Positions 1,614 to 17,659 of a DNA stretch of 44,635 bases are shown here, one piece after another; positions within the stretch are counted from its first letter, which is position 1, and each line of letters starts with the position of its first letter. The stretch lies in the IMG/VR virus record IMGVR_UViG_3300044733_002212, positions 1 through 44,635 of that record. One strand, given 5' to 3'. The position numbers and the translations under genes are program-made. This stretch comes from a virus. The notes below the pieces were generated by a model. It saw nothing but the letters and a program-made list of their open reading frames with translations. It was not told the DNA's origin and ran no database searches.

Positions 1614-2603
1614 TCAGGCCTTGGCTTGGATCGAGCCAGCCACAGAGGTACGCAGAGAACCGCAACCCATGGCGAGCTTGCCCACGATCAGGTCGCCCTG
1701 ATACTGCACATGGAAATCACCAGAGGTGGTTTCGATGCTGGGGGCCACAGCTTCCACGGTGCCGGCAGCTTCACGATGGAAGACCAGACCAGCACAGGTG
1801 GTGTTGGTGTGAGCGTAGTTGTTGTTTTCGCCGGAGATAGCGGCGCCACCAGCAGCCATGAAAGGCAGGTGGTTGGACTTGTACAGACGAATGCCGGCAA
1901 TGCTGTAGAGGCCTTTGCCGCTGTTCATATCGCCTTGGTCGTTGCCGAGCTCACGGTTGAGGATGTTGGTGTCAACCGAGGAGATCAGGCTGTAATACTG
2001 GCGGGGGCTAAGCACGGCCACACGACCTTCCTGGGGAGCATTGCGCTCGTCCAGAACAGCAGCAGCTTCAAAGAAGCCATCCACCAGGGCCTGGGCGTTG
2101 AACTGGTTGTTAGCACCAATCTTCACCTCGAAGCCACCAAGCTCGCCAGTCACGACAGAAGCTTCGCGGGAAGCGTTGTCGAGCACACGGGCAATGCGCT
2201 GGTCATAGAAGGCAGCCATGGCCTCACCAATCTGCTTCGAGATCTCGGCTCGCTGGCTGTACTGAGAGAGAACCTCGTCGAGGTCATACACAAACTGGCT
2301 GGAGACCAGCAGGTCATCCATCAGCAGGGTTTTCTCGTTGGCCTTCAGCGCGGTGTCGCCCAGCAGGGGGGTCCCCGGAGTATGGAAACCAGCGCCGAGT
2401 TTCCCCGTCATGAGGAACTGCTTGCTCTTACCACCACGCAGGCTGTAGGAGCGAATCAGGCCCTTAAAAATAGTAGCAGCGTTGAACGCAGTGAACACTT
2501 CACCGCTGAACAGAGTCAGAGCGGTGGCGTACTTAGTTGCGTAAGTATTACCTTGGTTACCGTTAACGGCATTAGGCCGTGTAAGGTTTGCAATGTTAGT
2601 CAT
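1614..2603 (-). CDS. Major capsid protein (T7 gp10-like)
   Basis: This 329-residue protein has the HK97-fold capsid features of T7-like phages: an N-terminal arm (NAVNGNQGNTYATKYATALT), a segment reading LIRSYSLRGGKSKQFLMTGK, and a C-terminal region with CGSLRTSVAGSIQ. The length is close to T7 gp10A (345 residues). It lies between the scaffold/oxygenase genes and the tail tube genes. A 277-base non-coding stretch lies upstream and a strong hairpin just downstream, as expected of a gene expressed at a high level of its own. Confidence 0.95.
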   Translation of the reverse strand: MTNIANLTRPNAVNGNQGNTYATKYATALTLFSGEVFTAFNAATIFKGLIRSYSLRGGKSKQFLMTGKLGAGFHTPGTPLLGDTALKANEKTLLMDDLLVSSQFVYDLDEVLSQYSQRAEISKQIGEAMAAFYDQRIARVLDNASREASVVTGELGGFEVKIGANNQFNAQALVDGFFEAAAVLDERNAPQEGRVAVLSPRQYYSLISSVDTNILNRELGNDQGDMNSGKGLYSIAGIRLYKSNHLPFMAAGGAAISGENNNYAHTNTTCAGLVFHREAAGTVEAVAPSIETTSGDFHVQYQGDLIVGKLAMGCGSLRTSVAGSIQAKA

Positions 2604-2880
2604 TTGAAAGAACTAGGAGAAAGTTTGTTTGTTCGGTCAGCCGATCAAATCCTTTTCAGATGAAAGTTGTCCTCCGCAGAGGGCTCTCTCCTACTCTTGA
2701 ATTGTCTCTAAAGACCTAGATCTTTCCTTGCAAGGATTGCCGTAACAATGCCACGGACACGGGCGATAGGAATAGGGTCCGACTATGAGGTGCCCTACTC
2801 CCCTTCCTTCCTGCCCTGTAAGAGCCTCGGATCAACCAAGAGCCAGGACAAGTTCGCCGTTATTAAGCCACGGGCGCGGG
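2604..2880 (-). promoter_or_regulatory. Non-coding leader upstream of the capsid gene
   Basis: This is one of the longer gaps in an otherwise tightly packed late block. I see no convincing gene in it on either strand. It contains a perfect CCTTGCAAGG palindrome at 2726-2735, a small CCTC/GAGG hairpin near 2669-2684, and an A/T-rich run just before the capsid ATG. There is no purine-rich ribosome binding site next to that ATG. By position it should hold a late promoter for the phage RNA polymerase, but I cannot define the promoter sequence. Confidence 0.4.
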
Positions 2881-3384
2881 CTAGCGTGGGATGTACTTGT
2901 ACTCCCAGCTCTCAGCAGGCTCCAGATGAAGCCCAATAGAAATCCGCAGTTTGTTTGGTTTGGTAGGAGTAAAGGGGCAGTGCAATAAGCTGGAATCAAA
3001 AATCACTGCCCGGTTTGGCTTGTAGTCAACTACGTCTTCCCCTACTACCAATGCCCCACCCCACTCCTCATTCCAAACAGGTGATGAGAAATGAATAAGG
3101 CTGGTATGCCCCTGGGGACCATCGATGTGCCAGTGCGAGTCAGTGCCTGCTGTTTGTCCATTCACACCAACCCTTTTCACCTTCATCGGACTGAAGTGGT
3201 TTCGAGGGATGTTGTGGTACAACAACCAGCCAAGCCTAGACTCAATGTCAGGCTTGAAGATTCGCCAAACACATGTTTTATCGTCATGACCGCTAAAGGG
3301 GGGATACTCCCAGTGCGGCCCTGACAACATCTGAAGCGCGATGTCCCAGCGTCTAGCATTTAGATAATCATCAATGATGATCAT
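2881..3384 (-). CDS. 2-oxoglutarate/Fe(II)-dependent oxygenase-like protein
   Basis: A compact 167-residue double-stranded beta-helix type protein. The metal triad is visible as H86-x-D88 (HWHID) and H135 (SSLLHCPF), with R147 (KLRISIGLHL) positioned to bind the 2-oxoglutarate carboxylate. Proteins of this class hydroxylate protein side chains or small molecules. Its start overlaps the stop of the next oxygenase by ATGA, and it is the last gene before the capsid leader, so it is made with scaffold and portal. The substrate is unknown; a virion protein is a reasonable inference from position. It belongs to a different subfamily from the three longer oxygenase-like proteins in the window. Confidence 0.8.
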   Translation of the reverse strand: MIIIDDYLNARRWDIALQMLSGPHWEYPPFSGHDDKTCVWRIFKPDIESRLGWLLYHNIPRNHFSPMKVKRVGVNGQTAGTDSHWHIDGPQGHTSLIHFSSPVWNEEWGGALVVGEDVVDYKPNRAVIFDSSLLHCPFTPTKPNKLRISIGLHLEPAESWEYKYIPR

Positions 3385-4013
3385 ATCTTGATGTAGTGGG
3401 TCATCTTTACTGTGTCAATAACTCGAGCCTCAATCACGAAGAAACGCTTCAAACGCTTCCCTTCGTATGGATCGGAGTTATGGATTAGGTTCGATGGGTG
3501 GACAACGAACATCCCCGTTTGAGGGAGAAGCGTATGAACCATCGTCCAGTTCTGCCTTCGTGACTTACCATTTGGGTTCGGGTCCTGCAGCTGTAGGCGG
3601 CCCATCGGGAACTTGTCATCCGAACCCTCTTTTTCGTTCTTGTCGAGATCCAGATAGTAGACACACACATAATGTGAGTCTTTATGGTTATGAGGCTTAG
3701 CTCGTTCACCAGGCTCCATCTTGCGGCAGACGCAGAGGAACTCAATGTCATACACGTCAGGCTCAAGATACTGATCAATGTGCATCATTGAGCGGACGCG
3801 AGTCTTGGCAAATTCCTTAAGCTTTTGTACAGCCGGATCCTCTTCAACAAAGAAGTTATAGCCAGGACGCTGAGGGTCCAGAATATCGATCACATGATCG
3901 TACCGTTGATAGTACTGCTCATGGAGCTCGATCAGCTTTTGCTTCTCTTCGTCCTCAAGAACTAGGTAGTCTTCCAGTACGTGTGTGGGCCACAGCGTAT
4001 GGAGTTTCGTCAC
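3381..4013 (-). CDS. 2OG-Fe(II) oxygenase-like protein, PF13759-like
   Basis: A 210-residue protein with H108-x-H110 (PHNHKDSHY) followed by a YVCVYYLDLD strand, and a distal H178 in VVHPSNLIHNS with basic residues after it (KRLKRF). This is the layout of the phage PF13759-type oxygenase family. It is clearly paralogous to the proteins at 30923-31558 and 29008-29589, sharing the HxH, YY-L and HPs..vH blocks. It overlaps the scaffold gene and the next oxygenase by 4 bases each, so all three are translationally coupled. The substrate is not known; capsid, portal or scaffold are candidates. Confidence 0.78.
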   Translation of the reverse strand: MTKLHTLWPTHVLEDYLVLEDEEKQKLIELHEQYYQRYDHVIDILDPQRPGYNFFVEEDPAVQKLKEFAKTRVRSMMHIDQYLEPDVYDIEFLCVCRKMEPGERAKPHNHKDSHYVCVYYLDLDKNEKEGSDDKFPMGRLQLQDPNPNGKSRRQNWTMVHTLLPQTGMFVVHPSNLIHNSDPYEGKRLKRFFVIEARVIDTVKMTHYIKI

Positions 4014-6966: not shown

Positions 6967-7149
6967 CTAATCCTCTTTTAATGAGTGGATGTAATCAACG
7001 ACCGAACGTTGGCCAGCTAGATACATGATCTTGGCCAGGTTATCGGATGGGTTTGGGTTGTAAAGTGGATAAAGCTCTTCGAGCTTTTCAAGGAGCTCTG
7101 CGATGATTCGATCACCGTCAAAGACATCCTTTACTTCTAGCTCAGCCAT
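6967..7149 (-). CDS. Small conserved-looking protein upstream of portal block
   Basis: 60 residues, acidic and helical (RIIAELLEKLEELYPLYNP), with a second helix around RSVVDYIHSLKED. The start overlaps the end of nrdB by 8 bases, so it is translated with the ribonucleotide reductase genes. It is followed by the proline-rich gene four bases later and so bridges the nucleotide and structural blocks. I do not recognise a domain; the composition suggests a small folded cytoplasmic protein. Confidence 0.6.
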   Translation of the reverse strand: MAELEVKDVFDGDRIIAELLEKLEELYPLYNPNPSDNLAKIMYLAGQRSVVDYIHSLKED

Positions 7150-7861
7150 AAGATGGGAGATCGTTATTAGAAGCCTCGAAAAAGGCTGGGAACCTGGCTC
7201 GCTGGGTGTCGGCTAATCCAGCTGCCTTGCCTTTGCTATACAGAGAGTCAGACTGGGATAACCAGAAATCCTTATCGAGCCACTTGTTCTCGGACTGACC
7301 CAGACCATCCATCACCCAATGCACGGTGGCTTTGCGGAGCTTGTTCAGGTTTGGGGTGCTCTTCAGCCCGAGGTCGTGAGCGACCATGCCATGGATCGCT
7401 ACGTGGGTCTGTTCGTCCCTGGAGATATCGGCCGCCAGGGTTCTCAAACCCATATCCCCGTTGAAGCGGAAGAACGGCAGCAGGACAAAGAACACACTGC
7501 GCTCAAGGATCGAAGCCTTGAGAATCGGATGCTCAGGAGCGTCCAGCCATGCACTGCGAATGACTGCAGCCTCACGCTCAGCCTTTGCATCAGTGCCGTG
7601 TGCAGCAACGATGTACGACAGGCCCAGGTCGTGCTTGTCCTCATCTTGCTGGTTAGACAGCAACGCTTCGACGACACCCGGCTTGTTAGGCAGCTCCTTA
7701 TCAAGTCCCTGCTGGAGGAACTCCTTAACAGGGAGCTCAAGAGTACGAAGGGCAAGGGCTCTGTAAAGAGACTCCTCGGCTCCATCAACGAACTGCCCCC
7801 GTTCTACTTGAACGGGAGTCCACTTCCTCTTTCTGGAAATTACATCAAGATAGCTAGACAT
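7142..7861 (-). CDS. nrdB: Ribonucleotide reductase class I small (beta) subunit, cyanophage type
   Basis: 239 residues, much shorter than E. coli NrdB (376). A ferritin-like diiron pattern is visible: E74-x-x-H77 (DEDKHD), E120 (ILERSVFF) and E150-x-x-H153 (DEQTHVAIHG), with an earlier acidic ligand near E29/E30. In standard class Ia proteins the radical tyrosine lies four residues after the first histidine; here that position is L81 (Y83 is nearby). It overlaps nrdA by one base, so the subunits are coupled. Related cyanopodovirus enzymes were once called class II and later reassigned to class I because of such a downstream beta subunit. The cofactor and radical type cannot be read from the sequence. 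Confidence 0.85.
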   Translation of the reverse strand: MSSYLDVISRKRKWTPVQVERGQFVDGAEESLYRALALRTLELPVKEFLQQGLDKELPNKPGVVEALLSNQQDEDKHDLGLSYIVAAHGTDAKAEREAAVIRSAWLDAPEHPILKASILERSVFFVLLPFFRFNGDMGLRTLAADISRDEQTHVAIHGMVAHDLGLKSTPNLNKLRKATVHWVMDGLGQSENKWLDKDFWLSQSDSLYSKGKAAGLADTQRARFPAFFEASNNDLPSYG

Positions 7862-9234
7862 TACTCAGCACAAGAAACACAATAGTCCTCATCTTGCTCA
7901 AATGAGAAGATGTCTTTATACTCATCATCAAGAATGGCCGAGGCATCATCCTTACGAAGAGTGTCGGGCATCACCTGCAATGCGTAGTAGAGAGACGTTT
8001 GCGGTGAAGCAAGCCAGTCCTCGATAAATGCGTTGTCATAAGTAACAACGTCACTCCACGAATTGAAGCTATACCCATGCAGCAGACCCGTGCTGTCAAG
8101 CATTTGCATGATGCCATTAGCTACGGACTTGTAGGCTTCCCAGCCGACCTCTGCAGCAATTTCGACAGGACCATAGTTGACGGACATAACGCCAAGCGTC
8201 CCAGAATCCCTGTCAACTTCCCTGGCTATAGGAGGGGCAATCTCAGGCGTTGTGACAAAACCGTCTAGATCTGTGTACCGGTAGCTACAGCTAGCAGTGG
8301 GGGCAATGGTGAATGCCCTCTCCATGCCGTAGTAGCGGGCAACAGCAGCGGCCTCAAGGATGCCTTTGTACATCGCTTGAGCCAGGCGATTGGCAGTGCT
8401 GTCGTTGTGCTGATAGCTGTTCACTTCAGCCAACGCAACGCCAAACTCTTGATAGGTCACCCCATAACGCCGTAGCAGGTTGGCGAGCCCCAGCATTCCG
8501 AGACCGACTTGCCGATCTTCGTCTGGAGAGAGGTACTCCCCGCTCTGTTCAACACCTGTTCGGGCGTGTAGTTCGCACAAGTCCCGCATTCCGTCTGGAA
8601 ATGCGCTCGGAAGGTCATCGAGCTCGCATGCGCCGAGGTTGACATGCTCCAATAGACAGGTTCCCCGTGATCGCAGATAGATTTCCAGGCAAACGTTACC
8701 CCGGATGCGATTTCCGTCATTATCAAACTTGACTTTGTTGAGCCAGATGTCACCACTTTGAATCTTCTTTAGAAGTGCTTCCTTGATCTCATCGCTGGCA
8801 CGATGCCACCAGAGGGGCGTGATATCCACACATCGCTTCACCCAGGGCAGTTCAGCCCTACTCACATTGATGAATTCAAGAATGTCTGGGTGGCTTAAGT
8901 CGAGGTGCAGAACCACTGCCCCGTTCTTGTAGATACCACCGCGCCGCAGTATCTCATTTAGGGAAGAATAGATCTTCCCAAAGGAAACAGGCCCGCTGGC
9001 CACAAGGCCTTTGCCGTTCTCCTCCCCCTTGGCACGCAGCTTGGAGAGGTGGACAGCAACGCCGGCACCATATCGGAGGGCGTGGGATACGAAGCGCCAA
9101 CTGGCTTCGATTCCATTGGGCCCCTCCATCTCGTCTTCCACCACGAAGACGGTGCAACTAACGGGGAGGCGGCTATCTGGATTGTCGATCCAGGTCTGTA
9201 CTCGGCCCGTTCGGGCAATCTTCGAGGTGGACAT
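7861..9234 (-). CDS. nrdA: Ribonucleotide reductase class I large (alpha) subunit, reduced form
   Basis: 457 residues against about 750 for cellular NrdA; the N-terminal ATP-cone region is absent. The catalytic parts are complete: C27 and C203 as the redox pair, N180-x-C182-x-E184 as the active-site triad with the thiyl cysteine, paired Y416-Y417 for long-range radical transfer from the beta subunit, and a C-terminal CVSC (452-455) that accepts electrons from thioredoxin. It makes dNDPs for phage replication. Without the ATP cone, overall activity inhibition by dATP is probably lost, which would suit a lytic phage. It is followed directly by nrdB and preceded by the MazG-like gene. Confidence 0.92.
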   Translation of the reverse strand: MSTSKIARTGRVQTWIDNPDSRLPVSCTVFVVEDEMEGPNGIEASWRFVSHALRYGAGVAVHLSKLRAKGEENGKGLVASGPVSFGKIYSSLNEILRRGGIYKNGAVVLHLDLSHPDILEFINVSRAELPWVKRCVDITPLWWHRASDEIKEALLKKIQSGDIWLNKVKFDNDGNRIRGNVCLEIYLRSRGTCLLEHVNLGACELDDLPSAFPDGMRDLCELHARTGVEQSGEYLSPDEDRQVGLGMLGLANLLRRYGVTYQEFGVALAEVNSYQHNDSTANRLAQAMYKGILEAAAVARYYGMERAFTIAPTASCSYRYTDLDGFVTTPEIAPPIAREVDRDSGTLGVMSVNYGPVEIAAEVGWEAYKSVANGIMQMLDSTGLLHGYSFNSWSDVVTYDNAFIEDWLASPQTSLYYALQVMPDTLRKDDASAILDDEYKDIFSFEQDEDYCVSCAE

Positions 9235-9236
9235 TG

Positions 9237-9623
9237 TCAGATAAGGTCGGTGAGGTATGGGGGTTGGTAATTGGGGCCTTTGATAACTTTTCCTGCCTCG
9301 TTCTTCAGAGGCTTTCCGTCCACAAGTTTGGACATGTTGCTCCGATGTACTCGAGCCAGAGCTTCATCGAGCTCCCAGCCGGCAGCAGCAGCAAACTGGA
9401 AGCAAACAAATACAAGGTCCGCAAGCTCTTTAAGGGCAGCTTCTCGAGACCTAAAGTTTGAAAGATCTTGGAGACACAGGTCATATGCCTCAAAGAACTC
9501 ATGCGTTTCTTCGCAGATAAGATCTGATTGAAGGTCAAGAATTGAGGGGGCAAAACAGGCAGTTGGTTGATCCATCGCCACCCTGAACTGGAGGGCTTGG
9601 CCAAGTAAATCAGGTGCGCTCAT
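9237..9623 (-). CDS. MazG-like / phosphoribosyl-ATP pyrophosphohydrolase-like protein
   Basis: 128 residues with the all-alpha NTP pyrophosphohydrolase signature: E38-E39-x-x-E42 (EETHE) and E66-x-x-D69 (ELADL), which together bind Mg2+. The tail contains RVHRSNMSKL and a GPNYQPP segment, as in PRA-PH/MazG-like proteins of T7-like phages. Family members hydrolyse nucleoside triphosphates or (p)ppGpp-like nucleotides, and in cyanophages they have been proposed to alter nutrient signalling or clean up nucleotides. It ends three bases before nrdA and overlaps the DUF3310 gene by 4 bases. The substrate is uncertain. Confidence 0.82.
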   Translation of the reverse strand: MSAPDLLGQALQFRVAMDQPTACFAPSILDLQSDLICEETHEFFEAYDLCLQDLSNFRSREAALKELADLVFVCFQFAAAAGWELDEALARVHRSNMSKLVDGKPLKNEAGKVIKGPNYQPPYLTDLI

Positions 9624-9835
9624 CGGTTGCGGGATTTGGATACAAGGAAGATCTTTTTCTCTAGATAAGCCTTAGCCTTGAGAAGATCATCGATCTCCTC
9701 TTCATGCGGCTTGTGACCAGCACGACAGAGATACTTGACTACATTGCCGGCAAAGTAATCAAGCTGTTGATCTGCGATAAAATCCCAGACCTCGATTACA
9801 CCACGGGCATAATGGTCTGGTGAATATTTACTCAT
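9620..9835 (-). CDS. DUF3310 family protein
   Basis: 71 residues from ATG 9835, chosen because it forms an ATGA overlap with the upstream small gene; a 76-residue form from 9850 is possible. The pattern SPDHY...EVWDFI...LDYFAGNVVKYLCRAG...DLLKAKAYLEK is diagnostic of DUF3310, a small alpha-helical domain common in phage replication operons. The family has no established biochemical role; it is often found near nucleotide metabolism genes and is sometimes described as nucleotide-kinase-like. It lies between NblA and MazG-like genes. Confidence 0.85.
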   Translation of the reverse strand: MSKYSPDHYARGVIEVWDFIADQQLDYFAGNVVKYLCRAGHKPHEEEIDDLLKAKAYLEKKIFLVSKSRNR

Positions 9836-9999
9836 GAGTAGCGGGACCATGGTGGTGGATTATGCGGCTCAAGTTCGTCCTCTATCTTTTGCAAGAAGGA
9901 CTTCATCCAGGGTTGCCAAACTTCTGGATGTCGGTTGTACATGCTCCTAGCAAGGAGAGTGCCTCGGACCAGGAGTAGTTCTCTGTACGTCAGCTTCAT
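9832..9999 (-). CDS. Small protein overlapping the nblA-like 3' end
   Basis: 55 residues from ATG 9999 (starts MKLTYRELLLVRG) to a TGA at 9832-9834 that overlaps the next ATG by ATGA. The ATGA junction and a sensible amphipathic composition (SMYNRHPEVWQPWMKSFLQK) support a real gene. It overlaps the nblA-like reading frame by 53 bases. I do not recognise the family; its position in the replication operon is the only clue to role. Confidence 0.6.
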   Translation of the reverse strand: MKLTYRELLLVRGTLLARSMYNRHPEVWQPWMKSFLQKIEDELEPHNPPPWSRYS

Positions 10000-10171
10000 T
10001 CCAATTCTTCACTAAGTTAGTGATGGTATTGTTGTACATAAAGTTTTGACGCAGCAGCATTGTGCAGAGGTTTATTAGATCTTTCTTTGAAGCATTGTCT
10101 GCAGCATCACCAAACTTGCGTAGCTGAAACTGCTGCTCCAATGTGAGATCTAAAACTGGGTAAGGGATCAT
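9947..10171 (-). CDS. nblA: NblA-like phycobilisome degradation adaptor
   Basis: 74 residues. The block LTLEQQFQLRKF at about 9-20, a polar linker, then an amphipathic helix ending NTITNLVKNW, reproduces the helix-loop-helix of NblA (LxLEQqFxiR...). NblA binds phycobiliproteins and Clp chaperones and triggers breakdown of phycobilisomes. Functional NblA has been described in freshwater and marine cyanophages. ATG 10171 forms ATGA with the exonuclease stop, so translation is coupled; an upstream in-frame start would extend the protein by 13 poorly matching residues. The C-terminal tail of about 16 residues is longer than usual and overlaps the next gene. Expected effect: release of amino acids and loss of host light harvesting during infection. 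Confidence 0.75.
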   Translation of the reverse strand: MIPYPVLDLTLEQQFQLRKFGDAADNASKKDLINLCTMLLRQNFMYNNTITNLVKNWNEADVQRTTPGPRHSPC

Positions 10172-10893
10172 GGTGTGTAGGGGATGGGCAGCTGCGTGGA
10201 TGAATCCCAATCAGACGCTTGAAGAATCCGAGCTAGCCGTAGATTGCGTAATGCGTCTTCTTCTGTTTGCTGAGCCTGAGCGTATGTCTTGAGGACGGCC
10301 GGCCAATAGTCGCCGTCTTTGACAGAATTCAAGATGGCTTCTGCTTTCTTCGGACCAACTCCAGGGCAACCTGAATAGCCATCGGTCTGGTCACCAGTAA
10401 GGCATTGCTCATAGAGCCTCCTTCGAGCCTCTTCGGGGCTCTGGGTAAACTCCTTTTTCAGGTTGTAGATCCTGCACGGGATCTGTTCCATATCCTTGTC
10501 TGGACTAACAAGGACAAAGTTTTTAAGCTTGCCATTTGTAGCCAGGATCCCGCACACATCATCTGCTTCTAAGCCAGGCTTCATCACAGACTTGAAATTG
10601 GATAGACCCCAGTTCTTTAATCGCAAGTAACCACAGGGCTTTCGCTTGGTGCGATTGCCCTTGTAAGCAGGGTCAATTGTCTTTCGAAAATTGTGCTTGT
10701 CTGTAAAGGTTAAGATTAGTTTGTTGGTTTCGAACCGCTCCTTGAGGCGCGTAAGTTCATTTTGAACAATCTTCTGTGCCTCTACAAAGTTGCCAATGAC
10801 GATTGAAAGCTCTTGGTCAAAGTCGAGCTCTTCTTCGACGGCTGACGCTGCTCTGTAAAAGAAGTAGTCAGCATCAATCAGAAGGGTTGTCAC
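10168..10893 (-). CDS. 5'-3' exonuclease (T7 gp6 / flap nuclease-like)
   Basis: 241 residues starting with the PIN/FEN acidic motif LLIDADYFFYRA (D7, D9). It has a middle GLEADDVCGIL acidic cluster, VSPDKDMEQI, and a helix-hairpin-helix-like GCPGVGPKKAEAIL near residue 180. These are the ordered motifs of 5'-nucleases in T7 and related phages, which remove RNA primers and degrade host DNA. It overlaps the endonuclease VII-like gene by 20 bases and the nblA-like gene by 4 bases. The assignment is firm. Confidence 0.92.
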   Translation of the reverse strand: MTTLLIDADYFFYRAASAVEEELDFDQELSIVIGNFVEAQKIVQNELTRLKERFETNKLILTFTDKHNFRKTIDPAYKGNRTKRKPCGYLRLKNWGLSNFKSVMKPGLEADDVCGILATNGKLKNFVLVSPDKDMEQIPCRIYNLKKEFTQSPEEARRRLYEQCLTGDQTDGYSGCPGVGPKKAEAILNSVKDGDYWPAVLKTYAQAQQTEEDALRNLRLARILQASDWDSSTQLPIPYTP

Positions 10894-11302
10894 TGTGTTT
10901 AGTGTTATTGAGAAGGTAAAGCAAAGCCTTGGACAGGATCACTGGGTCGTCGTGAAGGAGCCCAACGCCTGAATTGCAGGATTTGCATATGTAGCCACGA
11001 AACGACTCCCCATTGTGGCAATGGTCAAGTACCCATTTCTGGGTATGGACGCCACATATAGGGCAGTCGCCTGGCGGTGGTACTGGGTGTTGTGTTTTTA
11101 GTGATGTTCGAATCTGGTGCTGCAGTCGGTGGCAGGTCTTGCATCTGTTTCTCGTAGCGCGATGGCGGCCATCAGCTTTGACAAACTCTGTTTCTGACTT
11201 CCACTCCCCACAATGTTTGCACTGCTTAGTGGCAGTCCGCCCATGACTTTCCGATCTTAGATTCGGAATCCAGTCGGCACCTAAAAGAGAGAGCTGATTC
11301 AA
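10874..11302 (-). CDS. Recombination endonuclease VII-like (His-Me/HNH) nuclease
   Basis: 142 residues with two zinc-binding modules. The first has C28-x2-C31 and C54-x2-C57. The second carries C80-x2-C83, the catalytic segment D93-H94-C95-H96 (VLDHCHNG), and C106-x2-C109 followed by N110, matching the phage endonuclease VII family. It may resolve branched DNA or nick. The ATG at 11302 lies 77 bases inside the polymerase gene in another frame; no better start is present before the first cysteine pair. As endonuclease I is also present, this is a second possible junction-cutting enzyme, or a homing-type free nuclease settled beside the polymerase gene. Confidence 0.82.
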   Translation of the reverse strand: MNQLSLLGADWIPNLRSESHGRTATKQCKHCGEWKSETEFVKADGRHRATRNRCKTCHRLQHQIRTSLKTQHPVPPPGDCPICGVHTQKWVLDHCHNGESFRGYICKSCNSGVGLLHDDPVILSKALLYLLNNTKHSDNPSD

Positions 11303-12992
11303 CGTCTTTCATGGCTGCAGTGATAAGAAATGCGGCTTGTTCTGCTTGCTCTGGAGCTACAGAGATCTGCATTTCATCGTGTACAAAGGCAAGGGGCCAG
11401 TAGCAGATGCCTGCTTCCTGCAGAAGTTCATTCGCCCTTATCAGCCAAAGCTTGCAAATAATTGCTCCACATGACTGCAAAAGGTAATTCGTTGCTGCAT
11501 GCTTCTTGCCTTGTAGATGAATCGGACGACCGTCAATTCCGGTCAGTACATCCGCCTCAGCACGCCTTTCAATAGCCTCTGTCAGCTCCTTAAAGCCTTC
11601 CAGGCCGGCCATGATGCGCTGCCTGATTTGCTTGCCCTTCTTCTCTGCATCAGCTTTACTTGCCCCTGCAGTGAGTCCTAGCTTTCGGTTTCCACCGCCA
11701 TAAATTAGGCAGTAGGTACAAGACTTCCCAGTTTTCCTGTCAGTCCCGTAGATCTCTGCTAGTGCAGTGTGGATGTCGCCTTCGACGACTTCCTTTCCAA
11801 ACTTGCCATGATCAAACCTAGCTAAGTAATGGGCAAGGCAGCGCAGCTCCAAGCCAGAAGCATCAGCGCCAACTTGCAGCCGATCATTCCCCGGATGGAA
11901 TAATTCTCGGTACTCATGATCAGAAGGAACCTGCGCAATATTTGGACCCATGTGGGCCTGACGGCCCGTGTTCGTGTTCAGGATGCAGCTGTGATGAATG
12001 CGACCATCTCTGCCAACCTTTTTAAGCCAAGCGTTCTTGCCTTCACTGATCTGCCCCAGATGTTTCTGTAGCGTCAGGATGCGAGCAAACTTCTTGGATT
12101 CATCTGTGTTGAGCTCGAGAAGAATGTCCTCATCAATCTTCGGAATACCGGTTTCGGTTTTCTCAAGCGGCTCCCATCCACGAAACATCTGAAATGCCGT
12201 TGCAATATGCTGTCGGCTTGTGGGATTGAACTCCCGAAGTCTCGTAAATGGAACACCCTTGTGATACCCACGAGGACCGTTATTCACAGCAGGTGTGAAC
12301 TCACCGCCACTCACATAAGGGAATGTGGTTCGCATCTCGTCTGAGAGCTGTTCGAGTTCACCCTGCAGTTTCCACGTCAACTGCTCGGCTTTCTTGGTAT
12401 CAAACGGAAAGCCCTCTCGCTCTTGCCAGGCCATCAGCTTGGCAACCTTGTGCTCGGTGTCTATACATTGTCTATACTTGGAAAGCTTGGGCTCAAAGAA
12501 CTTCGCCAAAGCCGTCGATACTTCAACGTCTTTAACGCAGTACTCAAGCATCTCTGGGCTGTAGTTAGACCAATCCCCATCAAGCTGTTTGCCGTACTGG
12601 GATTTGTACACACCAAGCCTGTAGCCCCAGGCCTCGAGCGAGTGCCTACCCCAAAGCTGTGCAGGCATGTTGGGGGGATTCTCCCTCTTGTCCTTCAGCA
12701 GCATGTGCATAAAGAACAAACGAGACAAAATCAGGGTGTCATACACCTGCCCCTGGGGCTCAAAGAAGGGATAAACTTCTCGAATAGCCTCGAAGTCATA
12801 CCCAATAATGTTGTGCCCCCACAGTTCATCAGCTTCGGCCAGGATGTTTAGGCCTGTAGTCACTGATTCCTGGAGCCCAGTATCGTCATAGCGACGAACC
12901 TCACCGGTATCCAGATCTTGCGTTACTAAGCAATGAACAACAGAAAGCTGACGCAATAAGCCGTCTGTCTCAACGTCGAATACGAGCCTCAT
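11226..12992 (-). CDS. DNA polymerase family A with 3'-5' exonuclease (T7 gp5-like)
   Basis: 588 residues. The exonuclease domain shows D6-x-E8 (VFDVETDG), D66 (GYDFEAI) and Y151...D155 (YCVKDVEVS). The polymerase domain shows motif A with D377 (GADASGLELR), motif B K423-x3-Y427-x3-Y431-G (KSCTYCLIYGG) and motif C H538-D539-E540 (AFVHDEMQI). It replicates the phage genome together with the primase-helicase and SSB. It is shorter than T7 gp5 (704). The thioredoxin-like gene overlaps its start by 4 bases. Y427/Y431 keep the tyrosine form typical of T7 polymerase. Confidence 0.96.
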   Translation of the reverse strand: MRLVFDVETDGLLRQLSVVHCLVTQDLDTGEVRRYDDTGLQESVTTGLNILAEADELWGHNIIGYDFEAIREVYPFFEPQGQVYDTLILSRLFFMHMLLKDKRENPPNMPAQLWGRHSLEAWGYRLGVYKSQYGKQLDGDWSNYSPEMLEYCVKDVEVSTALAKFFEPKLSKYRQCIDTEHKVAKLMAWQEREGFPFDTKKAEQLTWKLQGELEQLSDEMRTTFPYVSGGEFTPAVNNGPRGYHKGVPFTRLREFNPTSRQHIATAFQMFRGWEPLEKTETGIPKIDEDILLELNTDESKKFARILTLQKHLGQISEGKNAWLKKVGRDGRIHHSCILNTNTGRQAHMGPNIAQVPSDHEYRELFHPGNDRLQVGADASGLELRCLAHYLARFDHGKFGKEVVEGDIHTALAEIYGTDRKTGKSCTYCLIYGGGNRKLGLTAGASKADAEKKGKQIRQRIMAGLEGFKELTEAIERRAEADVLTGIDGRPIHLQGKKHAATNYLLQSCGAIICKLWLIRANELLQEAGICYWPLAFVHDEMQISVAPEQAEQAAFLITAAMKDVESALSFRCRLDSESKIGKSWADCH

Positions 12993-13285
12993 CGTTTAGC
13001 AATTGCAGTGAGTGCCTGATACCACCAACGCTGTGTCAACGCAGAACTACCTACCTTCCGAGATAGCTCATTACTATCTGCATCCATAATCAACACTGTC
13101 GGGTACAGCTCTAATTCATAGGCTGCAACCAGTGCAGGAGCATTCTCTTTCTGGATCACGGATACGTAGTGCTCGTAGTCTGGATGTTGATCCAGCACGA
13201 TCTGAAGGGCATTGGCTGCCATGTCACATGGGCCGCAGCCTTGCTTCTTAAAGAAGACAAGCCGAGCGGGCTTAGAAGTCGTCAT
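12989..13285 (-). CDS. Thioredoxin-like protein
   Basis: 98 residues with the active site C17-G-P-C20 after a beta strand (RLVFFKKQGCGPC) and a later YPTVLIMD stretch carrying the conserved cis-proline region. It is shorter than E. coli thioredoxin (109) and lacks the usual tryptophan before the first cysteine. It overlaps DNA polymerase by ATGA and primase-helicase by 14 bases. Two roles are reasonable: reducing the NrdA C-terminal cysteines encoded downstream, or acting as a processivity factor for the T7-like polymerase, as host thioredoxin does for T7. Context alone cannot decide. Confidence 0.85.
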   Translation of the reverse strand: MTTSKPARLVFFKKQGCGPCDMAANALQIVLDQHPDYEHYVSVIQKENAPALVAAYELELYPTVLIMDADSNELSRKVGSSALTQRWWYQALTAIAKR

Positions 13286-16682: not shown

Positions 16683-16722
16683 AACCTGAAACTAGCGCGT
16701 CTACCAATTCCGCCACATCCGC
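16683..16722 (-). other. attP: Candidate attP: 5' half of a tRNA-Leu gene
   Basis: On the minus strand the segment begins GCGGATGTGGCGGAATTGG and continues through a D-arm to a CTAGTTTCAGGT anticodon region, that is, a leucine tRNA with a CAG anticodon. After that the pairing of the anticodon stem, variable arm and acceptor is lost, although a T-loop-like TTCGAATCC follows at about 16664-16672, so it is not a working tRNA gene. Cyanophage P-SSP7 carries a 42-bp match to its host's tRNA-Leu just downstream of its integrase gene. The same arrangement here (integrase ends at 16817) makes this the likely attachment site. Confidence 0.75.
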
Positions 16723-16816: not shown

Positions 16817-17659
16817 TCAGAGCGAACTAATCGCGCTCTTGCAGGCCTCATCAGTGGCCTTTACATAACGTAACGATGTCTCCACATCGGCATGCCCCAT
16901 CAGCTCCATGATCGTGCGGGGGTGGGTGGTCTCCCCCAGCCAGGTGCCGAAGCTGTGGCGCAGGCTGTGCCAGACATAGTCCTCCCCATAGCCGCAGAAG
17001 TCGCGAACCTTCTTGAACGCTCGGTAGAGCTGATCTTTGTTGGACCAGTCGTCTTGAAACAAGTACGGCTGCTCTAAACGGTTCTTGACAACGGGATGCA
17101 GCAGCTGGTGCAGCGGCACCGCCCGCACATTGCGGCCCTTGGTCTCCCGACCTGGCTTGCCCCCAACCCACACCACGTTGGCGGAGAAGTCGAGGTCTTC
17201 TGCTTTGAGCTTGAGCAGCTCGCCCTGGCGCACGCCTGTGTAGGCGCTGAACACCAAGGCATCGGCCAGGTCCTGCCGGTCAAACACATCAACGGCCACA
17301 AAGGCCATGCGGGCCACTTGGTCCTTGCTGAAGTAGGTCAGGCGGTGCTGACCCTCCTTGAGCCGGTCCACGCTTGGCCAAATGACATTGTGTTCTTCCG
17401 CCTTGAGCGTCCACTTGATGGCGGTCGATCCAACGGAGAGAATCCTGTTGATGGTTGAGTTGGAGCGGCGTTGATCCTGGAGCTCCGAGATGAACTCGTG
17501 CCACCAGGCCACCTTTCCCATTCTGCTGAGTGGGAGTGATCGGCCACAGTATTTGGTGATGTGACCGGCATTGATTGCGTTGGTCTTTGCTGAAGGTAGC
17601 CGCTTCCACTTGGTTTTCCAGGTGTAGTCAAAGGCTTGTCCCCAGGTGTAGCTGCTCAT
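16817..17659 (-). CDS. int: Tyrosine recombinase / phage integrase
   Basis: 280 residues. The catalytic set is complete: R144 (YTGVRQGEL), H231-x-x-R234 (HSLRHSFGTWL), H256 (LMGHADVETS) and nucleophile Y265 (SLRYVK), with a lysine in the beta hairpin near 168-174. The N-terminal 100 residues form the core-binding SAM-like domain. Integrases of this type in T7-like cyanophages are proposed to allow rare lysogeny, but integration is seldom observed. The start overlaps the MarR-like gene by ATGA, and the attP-like tRNA-Leu segment lies just downstream. Confidence 0.95.
   Translation of the reverse strand: MSSYTWGQAFDYTWKTKWKRLPSAKTNAINAGHITKYCGRSLPLSRMGKVAWWHEFISELQDQRRSNSTINRILSVGSTAIKWTLKAEEHNVIWPSVDRLKEGQHRLTYFSKDQVARMAFVAVDVFDRQDLADALVFSAYTGVRQGELLKLKAEDLDFSANVVWVGGKPGRETKGRNVRAVPLHQLLHPVVKNRLEQPYLFQDDWSNKDQLYRAFKKVRDFCGYGEDYVWHSLRHSFGTWLGETTHPRTIMELMGHADVETSLRYVKATDEACKSAISSL

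Follow-up and report, generated by a model that had tools for sequence, protein, structure and literature searches.

NblA is an adaptor that brings phycobilisome proteins to ClpC, with an N-terminal motif that binds ClpC and a C-terminal motif that binds phycobiliproteins (PMC4103541, PMC7966870). The presence of nblA in T7-like cyanophages is already published, and the gene described here is known in kind. According to the account in PMC9602691, Nadel et al. (2019) predicted the gene in 14 isolates of cyanopodoviruses, and expression of a marine viral nblA in S. elongatus led to phycobilin loss. Oceanic viral NblA is further described as harmful to host photosynthesis (Nadel et al. 2025, as cited in PMC12892361).

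The window, that is, the whole stretch of DNA analyzed, comprises positions 1 to 44,635 (44,635 nt) of the IMG/VR record IMGVR_UViG_3300044733_002212. Its ends fall in the tail region, where one end cuts a gene (1-953) and the other carries large virion genes, roles that we infer from the T7 gene order. On the minus strand, an open reading frame running from 10171 down to 9947 encodes the 74-residue protein MIPYPVLDLTLEQQFQLRKFGDAADNASKKDLINLCTMLLRQNFMYNNTITNLVKNWNEADVQRTTPGPRHSPC, which contains both LTLEQQFQLR and NLVKNW. There is an in-frame TTG upstream, at 10210; nevertheless, the alignment with close homologues begins at the ATG of 10171. The gene and its neighbors are the following:

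7142-7861, minus strand: ribonucleotide reductase beta subunit according to the PHROGs listing (phrog_6799)
7861-9234, minus strand: ribonucleotide reductase large subunit (phrog_367)
9237-9623, minus strand: MazG-like nucleotide pyrophosphohydrolase (phrog_671)
9620-9850, minus strand: DUF3310-like gene (PHROGs: nucleotide kinase part; phrog_236)
9832-9999, minus strand: MKLT small gene, function unassigned (phrog_17835; synteny)
9947-10171, minus strand: nblA, 74 aa (PF04485 match, helix-loop-helix model, purifying selection)
10168-10171, minus strand: ATGA overlap of the exonuclease stop and the nblA start (sequence; same junction in the contigs of the sublineage)
10168-10893, minus strand: T7-like exonuclease (63-68% identity to those of five clade-A isolates; 54% to that of S-CBP2, the sixth compared)
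10874-11302, minus strand: endonuclease VII (phrog_2633)
11226-12992, minus strand: T7-like DNA polymerase, a single intact frame as in clade A (similarity to clade-A records)

The identification of this frame as NblA, made in the initial annotation, is strongly supported at the level of family identity by sequence comparison. The Pfam profile PF04485 (NblA) aligns with residues 8-56 through 49 of its 50 positions (1-49), with an E-value of 6.7e-10 and 39.7 bits, above the gathering cut-off of 25 bits. With a profile built only from three crystallized cyanobacterial NblAs, the window protein scores 37.0 bits and the best of 5,000 shuffled versions of it 9.8 bits, and no other open reading frame of the window is among the top matches of this profile. 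All 38 phage relatives match PF04485, and across these 38 NblAs, T10, E12, Q13, F15, and W57 are invariant, while R18, N52, L53, and K55 are nearly so, with L53 and K55 kept in at least 90%. The N-terminal motif that binds ClpC is conserved in the sequence, with LxLEQQF common to the window protein and the solved NblAs. At the other end of the protein, the positions of L51 and K53 in Anabaena NblA, which we take to be the residues for phycobilisome binding, are occupied by L53 and K55, and these candidate binding residues are, thus, conserved in sequence. Both Anabaena residues are said, in work by Bienert and co-workers from 2006, to be needed for this binding. The helix-loop-helix of NblA that had been proposed from the motifs also appears in an AlphaFold2 monomer model (alignment of 38 rows, all from the window and the contigs), which predicts two confident helices at residues 11-24 and 29-55 with a mean pLDDT of 84.6. 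Foldseek and VIA-align searches with this model gave no NblA among the matches, a two-helix model being too small to inform such comparisons.

The placement of nblA in a replication module has stood, given that the gene is flanked by the exonuclease gene on one side and by the MKLT, DUF3310-like, MazG, and ribonucleotide reductase genes on the other. Just upstream of the nblA start there is no purine-rich ribosome site and, given the ATGA overlap, translation of nblA is likely coupled to that of the exonuclease. Because the gene sits in the replication module, it is also likely to be expressed together with DNA replication. At its 3' end, nblA shares 53 nt with the MKLT gene, and the protein tail beyond residue 57, which is encoded within this overlap, may be free of selection for NblA function. 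The profile scan of IMG/VR gave at least 457 NblA relatives, and in the best 80 of these, whose loci were compared, nblA directly follows the exonuclease gene in nearly all that hold both genes. A DUF3310-like gene lies downstream in nearly all compared loci, and in Syn5 and SS120-1 the MKLT gene comes directly after the exonuclease gene. A different arrangement was seen in a set of T7-like contigs (L068-L101 and L104-L105), where nblA is replaced by a gene of 87-101 aa with a hydrophobic start, which begins inside the exonuclease end.

The proposal that the window derives from a T7-like cyanophage agrees with its backbone genes, in that its exonuclease, capsid, and terminase have their closest counterparts in clade-A T7-like cyanophages:

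1614-2603, minus strand: major capsid protein (nearest clade A; 78% to SS120-1)
12989-13285, minus strand: thioredoxin-like gene, a clade-A marker (phrog_22; marker according to PMC9381782)
24457-26190, minus strand: terminase large subunit (nearest clade A; 81%)

In a tree of exonucleases, the window falls in clade A (99%), within a sublineage of seven rows (96%) whose members all carry nblA. The RNA polymerase is nearest to that of S-TIP28 (55%), after which clades A and B score alike. Clade A is characterized by the presence of the thioredoxin gene and the absence of psbA and hli (PMC9381782), and the window has the thioredoxin gene, while a profile search of the record, which is not closed, matched neither psbA (PF00124) nor hli (PF00504), as the initial annotation had noted. 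No nblA was found in any of the six clade-A isolates checked (SS120-1, Syn5, S-CBP42, S-TIP28, P60, and S-CBP2). Among 41 clade-A-like loci collected through the exonuclease and not through nblA, four carry the gene, three of them from the sublineage of the window and the fourth, L060, whose NblA sequence recurs unchanged on a phage contig of the single-cell genome AG-670-B23 (Synechococcus). The small sublineage of the window and the lineage of L060 are, in this respect, exceptions within clade A, and this setting of nblA appears to be mildly new. The NblAs of the window and its group stand outside the clade-B NblA branch (100/99) in a tree that is built on few alignment columns and rooted arbitrarily. 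For this reason, recent transfer from the sampled clade-B phages is not indicated, within the limits of the short alignment and the arbitrary root.

The host can be approached through the integrase region of the window:

16684-16722, minus strand: putative attP (39-nt identity with the 5' portion of picocyanobacterial tRNA-Leu(CAG))
16817-17659, minus strand: integrase (phrog_1, E 2.4e-41)

The putative attP lies between the integrase gene and the gene of an ssDNA-binding protein. Of 61 genomes of the picocyanobacterial order, 33 contain the 31-nt core of this site: 32 of the 36 with at least 2.1 Mb and, with one mismatch, one of the 25 smaller ones, which are presumably mostly Prochlorococcus. 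One of the matches (G025) shares its contig with a T7-like phage region. The concentration of the core in the larger genomes points to a host of the Synechococcus lineage, with phycobilisomes, which makes the Synechococcus host of the initial annotation probable. For T7-like cyanophages, integration at tRNA-Leu that does not lead to stable lysogeny is known (PMC8776855). A recognizable NblA of their own is rare in the sampled picocyanobacterial genomes. Only 2 of the 61 genomes gave a PF04485 match, in one case on a T7-like phage contig, and a profile of phage NblAs run on the same genomes gave nothing else convincing. These hosts seem to lack a recognizable NblA or to have a very divergent one. 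On the same counts, recent capture of the gene from a picocyanobacterial host is rejected.

The usual slot of psbA and hli, between the scaffold and capsid genes, was positioned from the gene order of S-TIP37. It lies within the window at 2604-4009 and contains other genes, which largely answers whether psbA could stand in the missing part of the genome:

2881-3384, minus strand: second gene of the psbA/hli slot (phrog_274, E 8.6e-15)
3381-4013, minus strand: 2OG-Fe(II) oxygenase, in the slot of clade-B hli and psbA (phrog_81; PF13759)

Matches to PF13759 occur three times in the window phage (3453-3722, 29068-29361, and 30977-31270), and in only one of 13 related records checked. The co-occurrence of psbA, hli, and nblA was examined in 38 records. 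All three genes occur together in complete T7-like genomes, namely S-TIP37, S-RIP2, S-CBP3, S-SBP1, and three contigs (G017, G022, and G024), while S-B28 and S-RIP1 have psbA and hli plus an nblA that is found by the phage profile and missed by Pfam. In S-RIP1, nblA is broken by a frameshift, extending over two frames at 2876-3109 with an HNH-type gene directly after, and the split may reflect a pseudogene or an error in sequencing. Conversely, nblA is present and both psbA and hli are absent in S-SRP01 and four contigs (G016, G019, G020, and G021), the clade-A-like contig G004 has psbA without nblA, and psbA is found in none of the six clade-A isolates. From this pattern, psbA and nblA vary separately. 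The absence of psbA is chiefly a trait of the clade, given that clade-A phages are generally without psbA whether or not they carry nblA, and the clade split for psbA and hli has also been stated by Maidanik et al. (PMC9381782). The suggestion in the initial annotation that nblA marks shutdown of the antenna instead of upkeep of photosystem II is, therefore, not upheld: in clade-B phages, nblA is usually accompanied by psbA and hli and, as a general rule, a trade-off between nblA and psbA/hli is rejected on the 38 records by the co-occurrence of the genes and by clade-A phages that have neither.

Taken together, the sequence features make it very probable that the gene encodes a working NblA, acting as an adaptor between ClpC and the phycobilisome during phage replication. 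As a helix-loop-helix adaptor, it would bind the Hsp100 chaperone ClpC through its N-terminal motif and phycobiliproteins through its C-terminal end. It would be translated from a replication-phase transcript, probably coupled to the exonuclease by the ATGA overlap, and in a host of the Synechococcus lineage it would send phycobilisomes to the Clp protease. Dismantling of the antenna would then release amino acids and lower light capture while phage DNA is synthesized. The scarcity of a recognizable NblA in the sampled picocyanobacterial genomes counts against this reading, as it bears on how the host ClpC and phycobilisome would accept the adaptor. The timing, the binding of ClpC and of the phycobilisome, the loss of the antenna, and the benefit to the phage are each proposed by inference, and for the loss of the antenna the analogy is with related marine and freshwater viral NblAs, which, in the account of PMC9602691, cause phycobilin loss on expression.

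It is hardly credible that the frame arose by chance or is a remnant in decay and gives no functional protein. It is a short frame that overlaps its neighbors on both sides, and the same place is unannotated in several GenBank records and frameshifted in S-RIP1, which would suit such an origin. Against this, its profile score lies far above those of the shuffles, the frame is open in all contigs of the sublineage, and dN/dS is well under 1 where nblA does not overlap the next gene, with values of about 0.08-0.44 over the first 57 codons in comparisons within the sublineage, dS being saturated in some pairs. These values argue that nblA is selected as a protein and, together with the 5,000 shuffles, speak firmly against a chance match. 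A homologue that still uses ClpC and has changed its cargo, delivering mainly proteins other than phycobiliproteins, deserves more weight and yet appears unlikely. The phage NblAs form a branch of their own, with conserved residues, such as QNF and W57, that are absent from the compared cyanobacterial NblAs, and a T7-like phage contig with nblA is found inside a single-cell genome of Prochlorococcus, a genus that is not known to have phycobilisomes. On that contig (Prochlorococcus sp. AG-363-G03, QCFJ01000008.1), the T7-like stretch at about 1289-2372 holds exonuclease, nblA, and DUF3310 genes. Nonetheless, the residues aligned with those for phycobilisome binding are retained, and the viral NblAs tested to date, as reported in PMC9602691, do cause phycobilin loss. 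A working adaptor for the phycobilisome remains the preferred reading. It is conceivable, and put forward with some doubt, that a clade-A sublineage without psbA and hli acquired nblA at the exonuclease junction separately from clade B, and would dismantle the antenna without phage-borne repair of the photosystem.

Known relatives of the gene differ from it in setting to various extents. A tblastn search with the window NblA found relatives in 26 phage records. T7-like contigs with exonuclease and nblA also occur in gammaproteobacterial, flavobacterial, and planctomycete MAGs (L184, L186, and L187), the last with a clade-A-like exonuclease and the MKLT gene, and these are most likely misbinned phage contigs. 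The solved cyanobacterial NblAs (3cs5, 1ojh, and 2q8v) belong to the same family and share the core motif, matching the window protein with E-values of 1.3e-4 at best and weaker, but the cyanobacterial genes are host genes induced by starvation, whereas the window nblA is a gene of a phage operon. The Microcystis phages (Ma-LMM01, MaMV type) have an NblA of the same Pfam family with a weak tblastn match (E 0.5). Unlike the window, they are myoviruses with large genomes in which nblA adjoins ribonucleotide reductase, and their NblA groups with the cyanobacterial NblAs in the tree.

Closer in arrangement are the clade-B phages (S-TIP37, S-RIP2, KBS-P-1A, S-CBP3, S-SBP1, and S-SRP01), where the NblA core is about 41-51% identical to that of the window and nblA likewise directly follows the exonuclease gene. 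In these phages, which are not clade A and most of which carry psbA and hli, unlike the window phage, nblA instead starts inside the exonuclease end, encodes an NblA extended at its N terminus by a proline-rich segment, and directly adjoins DUF3310. The gene is unannotated in S-TIP37, S-RIP2, S-CBP3, and S-SBP1, and nblA after the exonuclease has, thus, been overlooked in several GenBank records. The six clade-A isolates resemble the window in their exonuclease, capsid, and terminase, which are the nearest, and in having no psbA, and most of them share the thioredoxin and MKLT genes with it, but in all six the exonuclease gene is followed by the MKLT gene or a membrane-protein gene in place of nblA. 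The clade-A nblA, therefore, widens the range of phages carrying this gene, and nblA-positive phages without psbA and hli can now be compared with those having both. If the separate acquisition suggested above is true, the clade-A nblA sublineage would be a natural contrast to clade B that separates the effect of NblA from the maintenance of photosystem II.
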